Assembly (NCBI GenBank): GCA_903854195.1
Contig: CAINVO010000040.1
Span: 1-33,176, forward strand
Direction: 5' to 3'
DNA length: 33,176 nt
Source of the DNA: an uncultured bacterium
Lineage (GTDB): Bacteria; Patescibacteriota; Minisyncoccia; Phycocordibacterales; CAINVO01
Under the pieces are notes generated by a model that was given only the letters and a program-made list of their open reading frames with translations, had not been told where the DNA came from and did no database searches. Every line of letters begins with the position of its first letter. The stretch's first letter is position 1. A program made the position numbers and the translations under genes. Positions 9,404 to 22,777 of this stretch are shown here, one piece after another.

Positions 9404-10690
9404 ATGTCAAAATCGCCATCAAAAAATAATAAAAAAGTCCTCAAAAAAGTGGTTAAAAAAACCACTCCTAAATCTGTAAAAGTTGCTCCAAAAGCATCAG
9501 CAAAAAAAGTTTCAGAAAAAAAGATAACAAAAACTGATAAGGTTGTTGTAAAAAAGGCATCAGTAAAATCACCAAAAGCTGCAGGTGTTGCAAAGGTTTC
9601 AAATAAAGCAAAGGAGCTAGAATTAAAGGCACAAAAACTACTCGTAAAAGGTAAGGCGCGCGGCTTCGTTACATATGATGAAATTTTAAAAGAATTTCCA
9701 ACAATTGAGGAGGATGTTTTTTTCCTAGATAATTTATATGAAAAGCTTTCAGTAGCCGGTATTGATGTTTTAGAAGGAGGAGGTCTTTTGGAAGTTAAAC
9801 AAGATGAGGACGAGATCATCAAAAAATACGCATATGGTAATAGTAGAAGTTCTGATTCCAACTATGATTCAATACAAATGTATTTGAAAGAAATTGGTCA
9901 GTACCCATTGATTCATGCTCATGAAGAAAAGGAACTAGCTAAGCGAATCGAAGACGGTGATGAAGAAGCAAAAAATCTTCTAGCAAAAGCAAACCTTCGT
10001 CTTGTTGTTTCTATTGCTAAAAAATATGTAGGGCGTTCTCCAGATCTTACTTTGCTTGATTTGATTCAAGAAGGAAACCTAGGTCTCTTTAAGGCTGTAG
10101 ATAAGTTTGACTGGACAAAAGGATATAAATTTTCAACATATGCCACTTGGTGGATTCGACAGTCTATTACTCGAGCTTTAGCTGATCAATCAAGAACTAT
10201 TCGTGTGCCTGTACATATGGTTGAGACTATTGCAAAATACAAACAAGTTTATCGTCGTTTGAGTCAGGACTTAGGGCGTGATCCTTTGCCTGATGAAATA
10301 GCGGTAGAGATGGGTCTCGATGTAGATAAGATTTACACTATTGAAAAGATTGATCAAAACACAGTATCCCTAGATACTCCTGTTGGAGATGATGATGATG
10401 GCAAGTCTACCTACGGAGATTTTATTTCTGATGATAAGATCTTGTCACCGGATCAAGAATCTTCACGTCGTATTTTGTCAGATCAGGTTAGAGAAATTCT
10501 AGATGATCTTTCTGAAAAGGAGCGTGAAATTTTGAAAATGCGTCACGGACTTGATGATGGTGTTCAACACACATTGGAAGAGGTGGGACGTATCTTCGGG
10601 GTAACTCGTGAACGTATTCGTCAAATTGAAGCCAAAGCTCATGAGAAGATAAGACAGCATGAGAAGGTAAATCGATTGAAAAACTACTAA
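9404..10690 (+). CDS. rpoD: Primary sigma factor RpoD (sigma-70)
   Basis: This is the housekeeping sigma factor that directs RNA polymerase to -10/-35 promoters. Residues 1 to about 70 are a Lys/Ala/Val-rich basic tail ([13 protein letters not shown] and similar). A sigma 1.1-like domain follows ([18 protein letters not shown]). Region 1.2/2 ([64 protein letters not shown]), region 3 ([13 protein letters not shown]) and region 4 ([20 protein letters not shown]) are complete. The start is placed by the TATAAT box 13 bp upstream. A perfect 44-bp palindromic terminator follows the stop. The 428-aa length is typical of compact group-1 sigmas. Confidence 0.98.
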
Positions 10691-10691
10691 C

Positions 10692-10735
10692 AAAATAATA
10701 ACCCCGTTGTTCTAGAACAACGGGGTTATTATTTT
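10692..10735. terminator. Intrinsic terminator after rpoD
   Basis: This is a perfect 44-bp palindrome, with a GC-rich core (ACCCCGTTGTTCTAG...) flanked by A-tract and T-tract (AAAATAATA / TATTATTTT). It begins one base after the rpoD stop. Confidence 0.92.
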
Positions 10736-10763
10736 GTAGTAATTCTATCCAGAATGAGCCTAA

Positions 10764-20450: not shown

Positions 20451-21998
20451 TTACTCTACTAGGCTTTTTCCTGTCATGGCGTCAGGAATATTTACGCCAA
20501 GAAATTTTAAGGTTGTAGGCGCAAGATCTGATAGACCTACACCATCTTGTCGAAGTTTCAAACCTTCTTCAGTGATGATACATGGTACAGGGTTTGTTGT
20601 GTGGGATGTGTGTCGGATACCTGTAATTGGATCAACATTTACTTCTGCATTTCCATGGTCCGCTGTGATGATGGCGATACCGTGTTCACCGTTCTCATCT
20701 TTCTTTTCAACAAGTGCATCAATTACTCGCTTGAGCTGAGTATCTACTTCTTCTACCGCAGTGATGATGGCAGGAACATTTCCAGTGTGACCAACCATGT
20801 CAGCGTTTGCAAAGTTAATAAAAATAAAATCAGTCCCTGCATTTATTTCTTCTATCGCCTTGTCTGCAATACCCTCAGCTCGCATTTTTGGAGCTAGGTC
20901 ATGTGTCGGAACATCCTTATGGCTTGGAAGCATGATGTGTTTTTCTCCTGGATAAGGATTTTCTACTCCGCCATTTAGAAAATATGTAGCATGGGCAAAT
21001 TTTTCTGTCTCGGCAATGTGAGCTTGAGTTAGTCCTGCTGCGGATATTTCTTTTGCTAAAGTCGTATCAACTTTTATGGGTGGAAAGGCAACAAGACATT
21101 TGAACTCTATTTTGTATTCTGTCATGGTCACAAAACATACATCTTCCTTTGGGGCCATTTCCAAAATTTTCTGTGAAAGCATGCGAGCTCGGTCCGCGCG
21201 GAAGTTGAAAAAGAAAACACCATCATGAGGTTGAATTGAACATCCTTTTCCGTTTATATCTAGACAAACAATTGGTTCGAGTTGTTCATCCATTTTTCCT
21301 TCTTTGTATAGATTTTCTACGTACTCTGATGGTTGAATATCTTTGAGCTGACAAATATTTCCTTTGCATTCAAACATAGCTTGTTCAACTTTCTCTAGAC
21401 GATCCCAGTTATTGTCTCTGTCCATAGCGTAAAATCTTCCGGACACTGTAGCGATAAAAGCAATTTTTACTTCTTGCAAAACCTTCTCAAGTTCACGTAG
21501 GTATTCTGCTGCACTTTGCGGAGGAGTATCGCGACCATCTGTGAAAACATGAATAGCAACTCTTTCAATACCTGCATCTTTTGCTGCACGAAGGAATGCA
21601 AAAAGATGATCTTGGTGAGAGTGTACTCCGCCATCACCAATTAGACCTTGCACATGAAGTGTGGAGTTGTTTTTCTTTACATGATCAAATAGTGCAGCGA
21701 AGGCAGGATTTTTTGCATACTCACCTGTGTCTATGGCTTTACCAATACGTACAAGTTCTGTATCTACTGGTCGTCCTGCACCAATGGTTGTGTGACCCAC
21801 TTCACTATTTCCCATTTGACCTTCGGGTAGACCAACAGCATCACCACTAGCTTTTAGGAGTGTGTGTGGGTATTTTCCCCATATTTCATGGAAAAAAGGA
21901 GTTTTAGCTTCTGCAATCGCATTATTTTTTGGATCTTCCCTGTAGCCCCAACCATCGAGGACTATTAGAGTAACTTGTGGGTGATTTTTTTGTGTCAT
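20451..21998 (-). CDS. gpmI: 2,3-bisphosphoglycerate-independent phosphoglycerate mutase
   Basis: GpmI interconverts 3- and 2-phosphoglycerate using two metal ions, usually Mn. The first metal site begins at LIVLDGWGYRED. The phosphoserine nucleophile is Ser65 in QMGNSEVGHTTIGAG, and the C-terminal metal ligands lie in FINFANADMVGHTG and IITADHGNAE. The middle phosphotransferase-domain insertion, with HVFTDGRDTPPQSA, is present. The 515-aa length is standard. With eno nearby on the same strand it covers two consecutive steps of lower glycolysis. The promoter lies in the arm of a large inverted repeat. The ATG follows the -10 by 8 bp with no Shine-Dalgarno. Confidence 0.97.
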   Translation of the reverse strand: MTQKNHPQVTLIVLDGWGYREDPKNNAIAEAKTPFFHEIWGKYPHTLLKASGDAVGLPEGQMGNSEVGHTTIGAGRPVDTELVRIGKAIDTGEYAKNPAFAALFDHVKKNNSTLHVQGLIGDGGVHSHQDHLFAFLRAAKDAGIERVAIHVFTDGRDTPPQSAAEYLRELEKVLQEVKIAFIATVSGRFYAMDRDNNWDRLEKVEQAMFECKGNICQLKDIQPSEYVENLYKEGKMDEQLEPIVCLDINGKGCSIQPHDGVFFFNFRADRARMLSQKILEMAPKEDVCFVTMTEYKIEFKCLVAFPPIKVDTTLAKEISAAGLTQAHIAETEKFAHATYFLNGGVENPYPGEKHIMLPSHKDVPTHDLAPKMRAEGIADKAIEEINAGTDFIFINFANADMVGHTGNVPAIITAVEEVDTQLKRVIDALVEKKDENGEHGIAIITADHGNAEVNVDPITGIRHTSHTTNPVPCIITEEGLKLRQDGVGLSDLAPTTLKFLGVNIPDAMTGKSLVE

Positions 21999-22006
21999 AG
22001 AGCCGT

Positions 22007-22035
22007 ATTTTACACCAAAAATATAAAAATGAAAA
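22007..22035 (-). promoter_or_regulatory. Promoter of gpmI
   Basis: On the minus strand TTTTCA (-35) and TAAAAT (-10) are 17 bp apart, and the -10 ends 8 bp before the ATG. The -35 and most of the spacer lie within the left arm of the 22016-22151 inverted repeat. Confidence 0.5.
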
Positions 22036-22151
22036 TTATGATATTTTTCGTCAAACAGAATAAATTTTTGCTAAAATTTTTCTTCTTGCTCGGGGCCAAG
22101 CCCCTGCGCAAAGTTTCCTTAAAATACATAATTTTCATTTTTATATTTTTG
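22016..22151. repeat. 136-bp compound inverted repeat between gpmI and the GNAT gene
   Basis: The outer arms are perfect 25-bp complements (22016-22040 and 22127-22151), extended by six more pairs after one bulged base. The core has a second nested hairpin, TTGC-TC-GGGGC-CAA-GCCCC-TGC-GCAA (22086-22111). No ORF with coding character lies inside. The architecture resembles a MITE or palindromic repeat element. Confidence 0.8.
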
Positions 22152-22203
22152 ATATAGAAATACTTATTGTTGATTAGGACCATGTTTTTTGTTTTCATTG
22201 TGA

Positions 22204-22227: not shown

Positions 22228-22734
22228 ATGAAGATAAAAGAAAAAAATTCTAGTAGGCCAAGTAAGGTTGCCTTTGAGGAACTTGTTGGTTTTTTAAAGG
22301 ATGAGGAAAAGATAATGCAATCTCGTGTTAATTTGAAAAGTCTTTTGGGATTGTATAAAAATAAAAAAGCATATTTTTGTTTTAGCTCCGATATTCCGGT
22401 TGCTTTTGCAGGTCTTTGGTCAACAAAAAGTAAGGAGTGGTTAGAGTTTGGTACCTTGTGGGTTAATCCAAATTTCAGAGGGATGGGTTTCTCGTTGGAA
22501 GCTTTTGAGGAATGCATTTCTCTTGCTCCACCTAAGAAGAATATTTTTCTTATCACGCGAAGTAAAAGGGTAATGGATATAGCAAAATCTTATGGATGGT
22601 TTGAATGGAAATCACAGGATTGGACTAAGGATTCATTGTGGCAAAAAATTGCAGAGCCGTGGGGAAAGAATGAGAAGCTTCCAAAGGCTACAAGAATGTT
22701 TCCATCTGGAGGTAGGTTGTTTATCAAGCCATAG
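22228..22734 (+). CDS. Putative GNAT-family N-acetyltransferase
   Basis: This is a 168-aa single-domain protein. The segment EFGTLWVNPNFRGMGFSLEAF has the beta4-alpha3 layout of GNAT enzymes, with R-G-M-G-F-S in place of the acetyl-CoA-binding R-x-x-G-x-G/A. The following strand and loop NIFLITRSKRVMDIAKSYGW matches the usual beta5 and alpha4. The substrate cannot be predicted. The gene stands alone between the large inverted repeat and a strong bidirectional terminator, and it converges with eno. The family call rests on the motif only. Confidence 0.65.
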   Translation: MKIKEKNSSRPSKVAFEELVGFLKDEEKIMQSRVNLKSLLGLYKNKKAYFCFSSDIPVAFAGLWSTKSKEWLEFGTLWVNPNFRGMGFSLEAFEECISLAPPKKNIFLITRSKRVMDIAKSYGWFEWKSQDWTKDSLWQKIAEPWGKNEKLPKATRMFPSGGRLFIKP

Positions 22735-22777
22735 AAAAATAAAAAGCCCCGGCGAAGGCCGGGGCTTTTTATTTTTT
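22735..22777. terminator. Bidirectional intrinsic terminator between GNAT gene and eno
   Basis: AAAAAGCCCCGGC, loop GAAG, then GCCGGGGCTTTTT, with A-tract before and T-tract after. It serves both convergent genes, starting right after the GNAT-gene stop and ending 5 bp before the eno stop. Confidence 0.93.

Follow-up and report, generated by a model that had tools for sequence, protein, structure and literature searches.

A palindrome upstream of gpmI as a probable member of a dispersed family of structured repeats in Patescibacteria

The palindrome and its surroundings

The window (the whole stretch of DNA that was analyzed, 33,176 nucleotides from an uncultured bacterium of the Patescibacteriota) carries a long palindrome in the space between two divergent genes, gpmI and a GNAT-like gene, and 5' of each (Table 1). 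The gpmI and eno genes were confirmed by Pfam, the GNAT-like ORF weakly so. In the window this ORF and an ordinary bidirectional terminator (together 22228-22776, the terminator at 22735-22776) separate eno from gpmI, and in the congener G001 eno and gpmI directly neighbor each other and no element intervenes. Another of the ordinary long palindromic terminators of the window, at 10690-10737, is a loopless perfect palindrome of 24 bp, formed by ACAAAATAATAACCCCGTTGTTCT with its complement and unusually long for an ordinary terminator.

Table 1. Coordinates of the palindrome, its parts and the neighboring genes in the window.
Feature	Position	Strand	Remarks
Left outer arm, 25 bp	22016..22040		Reverse complement of 22127-22151; no second copy in own genome
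Right outer arm, 25 bp	22127..22151		Pairs with 22016-22040
Conserved repeated core (three-way junction and outer-stem base)	22040..22129	-	Covariance model R1, 65.4 bits, E 1.9e-18 in window
Core hairpin A, GC-rich, tip GGGGC-CAA-GCCCC at 22092-22104	22085..22113	-	Varies among copies, compensatory changes
Core hairpin B, AAAATTTT-AGCA-AAAATTT	22057..22083	-	AGYA loop conserved; unpaired A on 3' side
Entire folded element with imperfect outer arm extension	22008..22159	-	Inverted repeat and fold
gpmI, 2,3-bisphosphoglycerate-independent phosphoglycerate mutase	20451..21998	-	Pfam iPGM_N, Metalloenzyme
GNAT-like acetyltransferase ORF	22228..22734	+	Weak, slightly below Pfam cut-off

The two outer arms are perfect reverse complements of each other for 25 bp, as the first-pass annotation had described for a nested inverted repeat, and the longest perfect inverted arm in 40 first-order Markov versions of the window did not exceed 14 bp. 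With mismatches the inverted repeat reaches 33 nt at 91% identity (22008-22040/22127-22159), and on the minus strand pairing runs beyond these 33 nt arms if G-U pairs and a bulge are allowed. The folding energy of the palindrome was -49.8 kcal/mol on the plus strand (z -8.2) and -58.2 kcal/mol on the minus strand (z -9.7), values which no shuffle equalled on either strand. The GC hairpin that had been noted within the core was found, together with an AT hairpin that had been missed (AAATTTT-TGCT-AAAATTT on the plus strand). Because this second inner hairpin is present besides the GC hairpin, the core of the window copy is a three-way junction.

A conserved core in many genomes

DNA searches of the own genome with the whole element or with its arms returned self matches alone. 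BLASTN matches in relatives fell in the core, and those that shared the fold carried different, equally long paired arms. A covariance model (R1) was built from 18 cores with the same fold, the named ones among these loci coming from Paceibacterota, Zambryskibacteria, Nomurabacteria, Yanofskybacteria and Vogelbacteria; its E-values are rough, owing to a short calibration, with strong matches lying far from any threshold. This model identified 10 core copies in the own genome (E <= 1.3e-4); the congener G001 has about 35 and G272 has 31. Within the order 127 of 247 genomes gave matches, and of 287 genomes drawn from the phylum, 11 that lie outside the order did so too. Copy number thus ranges from 0 to about 35 across related genomes. 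The core measures ~90 nt and the whole element often 110-200 nt. There were 11 occurrences of the 19-mer AAATTTTTGCTAAAATTTT among 397 genomes of the order, and its reversed control gave 0 matches.

The exact core pattern also had 63 matches in viral contigs, and those inspected were without an adjacent stem. The same 19-mer is present in many viral contigs (e.g. L163, L168, L185, L215) in another conserved context (AGRTTAGAATTT...) that is apparently unrelated to the family.

A search of Rfam 15 yielded only tRNAs over the gathering threshold and no family matching the element. Our literature searches found no paper on MITE or REP sequences in Patescibacteria or the candidate phyla radiation, and for transcription terminators in Parcubacteria they gave a single match, which was unrelated. 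The element belongs to a small folded DNA repeat family which has apparently been undescribed so far. It is short, non-coding, multi-copy and dispersed, as expected of a MITE, and the proposal of a MITE or palindromic repeat stands to the extent that the core recurs in the genome and throughout the order; the arms are locus-specific, and the repeated part is the core. The palindrome is not a single copy conserved in all relatives, because the core recurs and the copy upstream of gpmI is missing in the relatives examined.

The recurrence of the core also refutes the view that the palindrome belongs to no family and arose by chance or by mutation (quasi-palindrome template switching). The arms taken by themselves are unique and AT-rich, which speaks for such an origin, but their length is far over chance and the core has homologues, with covariation, in >100 genomes, and we give this explanation practically no credence.

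Structure and covariation of the core

When 103 distinct copies were aligned, 94.2% of the cells paired in the three-way-junction structure. The covariation score was 0.717 compared with 0.207 +- 0.008 in shuffled alignments, and far above slid controls, and double-sided changes numbered 739 against 206 in the shuffles. This alignment was fitted to the model; an independent first alignment also exceeded its controls. Conserved letters of the core are ACTNGNGA, GAGCNCGAGGAA, the AGYA loop and ATCCGTG, and the unpaired A on the 3' side of hairpin B is likewise conserved. Visual inspection also showed, in several genomes, a recurring internal loop of UUGA/GAAA type at the core base.

A first count of G-U pairs against A-C mismatches, made for the functional strand, was biased by the model, and a recount was taken outside it. 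Hairpins A and B contained 21 G-U pairs and 6 A-C mismatches, so that G-U pairs account for ~1.5% of the pairs (21/~1,440 cells), which is low for an RNA helix varying as strongly. In the outer arms 38 G-U pairs stood against 40 A-C mismatches in the recount, indicating no strand bias. Judged by the general behavior of RNA helices, so few G-U pairs in the hairpins would be easier to reconcile with a DNA-level or two-strand constraint than with an RNA made from one strand.

An alternative is that a structure-recognising enzyme, either a HUH/Y1 transposase or an integron-integrase-like recombinase, acts on the element as folded single-stranded DNA, with structure and an unpaired base conserved and sequence left free. 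The nearly pure Watson-Crick pairing despite heavy sequence change, the conservation of the unpaired A and the loop, and the placement directly after stop codons, as in integron attC sites, are consistent with this. However, Y1 genes (PF01797) were only weakly associated with the element (86 of 127 genomes with elements vs 64 of 120 without, p = 0.027), and by eye no ends of the attC type (GTTRRRY/RYYYAAC) were present. Y1 was moreover missing from 14 of the 37 genomes with 7 or more copies, the own genome and G001 included, and a Y1 transposase was rejected as a required mobiliser on this count. We regard the single-stranded substrate as improbable.

Outer arms and traces of insertion

Most copies have long, perfectly paired outer arms which differ in sequence by locus. 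The arms were locus-specific in G000, G001, G066, G272 and G274, while in G139 they were conserved among copies. In the tested genomes the paired left-arm columns contained 570 A vs 306 T (49% A, 26% T), and the A-rich left arms imply T-rich right arms, as in bidirectional terminators; some arms are without a T-tract.

Six copies at different loci of G139 showed mostly 91-98% identity over 110-136 nt, arms included, with one copy at 88-93%, and in G272 near-identical 120-nt elements were found within unrelated, locus-specific perfect palindromes. Near-identical copies at different loci indicate recent dispersal. At the ends of three of the six G139 copies there were direct repeats of 7-10 nt, which are candidate target-site duplications; direct repeats flanking copies in the other genomes were not above a mismatched control. 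The G139 arm was absent from two congeners of G139, and a search for an autonomous element with the G139 arm pattern in G139, G078 and G180 returned only complete or truncated element copies, all in G139. We found no locus with the same arms that would be an exact empty site.

Several arrangements of copies were recorded besides. Three copies in the same orientation at ~110-nt spacing form a small tandem array (L355 329-637, G012:C14), and close pairs of oppositely oriented copies occur at L360 219-431 and L249 1294-1589. Truncated copies were present at L385 (G139:C76) and L377 (G139:C31). The L385 copy is joined to a different palindromic element, the end of which also adjoins the L317 copy, an arrangement suggesting mosaic exchange between palindromes. 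At L009 1717-1793 a further hairpin, which is also long and has extended perfect arms but another core, possibly represents a second repeat family of the same genome.

Position relative to genes and terminators

A stop codon reading toward the element was located within 60 nt in 54 of 66 copies, compared with 25% of random positions in the same loci, as determined with crude ORF calling (ORFs of 80 codons or more). In one-sided cases the antisense side was preferred (31 vs 12), and both orientations relative to the gene occur. Elements were found at the ends of ribosomal-protein and elongation-factor genes. At the 3' end of rplL, G001 has the element where G000, G033 and G005 have ordinary terminators, and in G019 an element lies in the other orientation (E 1.2e-5). 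At rplI/rpmA G001 again has the element and G000, G005 and G033 have ordinary intrinsic terminators, while at efp/rpsR the element of G001 had no recognisable counterpart in the examined stretches of the other genomes. On average the copies have the form of an intrinsic terminator, with a stable hairpin, a T-rich tract and a gene 3' end; some copies do not, and the window copy lacks the 3'-end position.

Since some arms overlap stop codons (L274, rplL), we considered whether the arms arose by inverted duplication of target flanks. Pre-existing terminators fit better, given that the arms are terminator-like and that relatives have ordinary terminators at these gene ends.

At two loci, L257 (G000:C24 near 6766) and L036, the element directly adjoins a long terminator-like hairpin. 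The arm of the L257 hairpin could pair with either side, so that the two structures might exclude each other in a switch-like manner.

The window copy, on the 5' side of both of its neighbors, is atypical for the family. At 14 gpmI loci of relatives the covariance model detected no element upstream of gpmI, so that the window copy is lineage-specific; two weak copies were detected downstream of gpmI in G017. The first-pass annotation had assigned the -35 region of gpmI to the left arm, and a consensus match is indeed present there (TTTTCA-17-TAAAAT, minus strand, 22035-22007), but the region contains 10 such matches where 10.0 are expected. The further suggestion that insertion of the element could have rewired the gpmI promoter was built on this chance-level match, and the family favors gene 3' ends and not promoters. 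A regulatory leader or promoter element of gpmI would account for the location directly upstream of the gene and for the match inside the palindrome; with promoter matches at the shuffled expectation, a preference of the family for gene 3' ends and no upstream element in the relatives examined, we consider it very improbable. That the window copy drives gpmI is not supported, and most likely it only insulates the gpmI and GNAT-like transcription units.

A functional RNA of the 3'-UTR, either an mRNA stabiliser or a protein-binding RNA, which is under selection, rarely copied and not mobile, would explain the deep covariation, the conserved AGYA loop and junction, the position at gene 3' ends and the excess of G-U over A-C mismatches in hairpins A and B. 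Against it are the near-identical recent copies at unrelated loci, the variation in copy number between related genomes, the occurrence of both orientations relative to the gene, a proportion of G-U pairs that is low for so variable an RNA helix, and the outer arms without strand bias, and we judge it unlikely.

Discussion

The repeats form a family with a covarying core, which has spread recently and lies at gene 3' ends where relatives have ordinary terminators. The window copy probably belongs to this dispersed, non-coding, structured family of Patescibacteria as a MITE-like core in predicted terminator hairpins, and the earlier interpretation of the palindrome as a whole is partly supported. 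In the mechanism that we propose, the outer stem is long and perfectly paired and carries as its cap the conserved core, a three-way junction of ~60 nt. Being A-rich on its 5' side and T-rich on its 3' side, this stem would act as a bidirectional intrinsic terminator. The core itself would be a non-autonomous, MITE-like mobile element that is tolerated or selected in terminator hairpins, may spread by inserting at or into such hairpins or by replacing them, and would be mobilised by an enzyme acting in trans.

A more far-reaching and tentative reading, which we hold to be rather doubtful, is that of a distinct class of mobile element kept by its structure and not by its ends. The core would enter the tips of terminator hairpins and the host arms would become the outer stem, giving mobile terminator caps moved by a putative structure-recognising enzyme.

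The genomes of Patescibacteria are small, and to our knowledge almost nothing is known of the way in which transcripts end there or of the small mobile elements they contain. Both matters become open to testing through a structured repeat that about half of the order's sampled genomes carry. The conservation of the inside, while the long outer arms change fully yet stay paired, bears on the making and upkeep of palindromes.

Among known systems, the element resembles REP/BIME sequences (RAYT transposases) as extragenic palindromic repeats near gene ends, but it is ~130 nt or longer with a three-way junction, and Y1 genes are missing in many high-copy genomes. Integron attC sites are folded, sequence-variable palindromes directly after stop codons with an unpaired base, a form shared with the element. 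The likeness is one of form alone, as the element, its ends read by eye, is without RYYYAAC...GTTRRRY core boxes and without a cassette array.

Uptake signal sequences in the terminators of Neisseria and Pasteurellaceae are likewise genome-wide repeats within intrinsic terminator hairpins; in the part of the source available to us they are described as fixed sequences of 9-11 nt which form the stem and have about 1,000 or more copies (PMC1852404). In contrast, the core of the element is a structured cap with at most some tens of copies and with helices that change with compensation, and a DNA uptake signal was not favored, the core not being a fixed sequence. With the RUP, BOX and Correia MITEs, as presented in the available parts of two articles (PMC3049150, PMC10969869), the element shares a short, palindromic, AT-rich, multi-copy, non-autonomous and intergenic character. 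Unlike these MITEs it is, in most genomes, without terminal inverted repeats that are fixed across copies, with the inside conserved and not the ends, and no consistent target-site duplication and no matching IS were found. A terminator function is raised as a possible role of MITEs in the portion available to us of a review of prokaryotic MITEs (PMC10969869).

The closest known system in behavior, to judge from the accessible part of its description, is the pneumococcal SPRITE, a small terminator-like repeat of gene 3' ends for which no target duplication or parent IS is established there (PMC3049150). Both are small, dispersed, non-coding repeats with a long terminator-like stem and a T-rich side, and both show enrichment at gene 3' ends and in the space where two genes converge. 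SPRITE is, in the same partial account, a simple duplex of 18 bp that carries a U tract and belongs to one species group, the pneumococci (PMC3049150), whereas the element has a three-way-junction core conserved across many genera of another phylum and a locus-specific outer stem; it works alike without being a member. As far as seen in the available parts of these sources, none of SPRITE, MITEs and uptake-signal terminators combines a conserved core of three-way-junction form with outer arms that change freely and with compensation.
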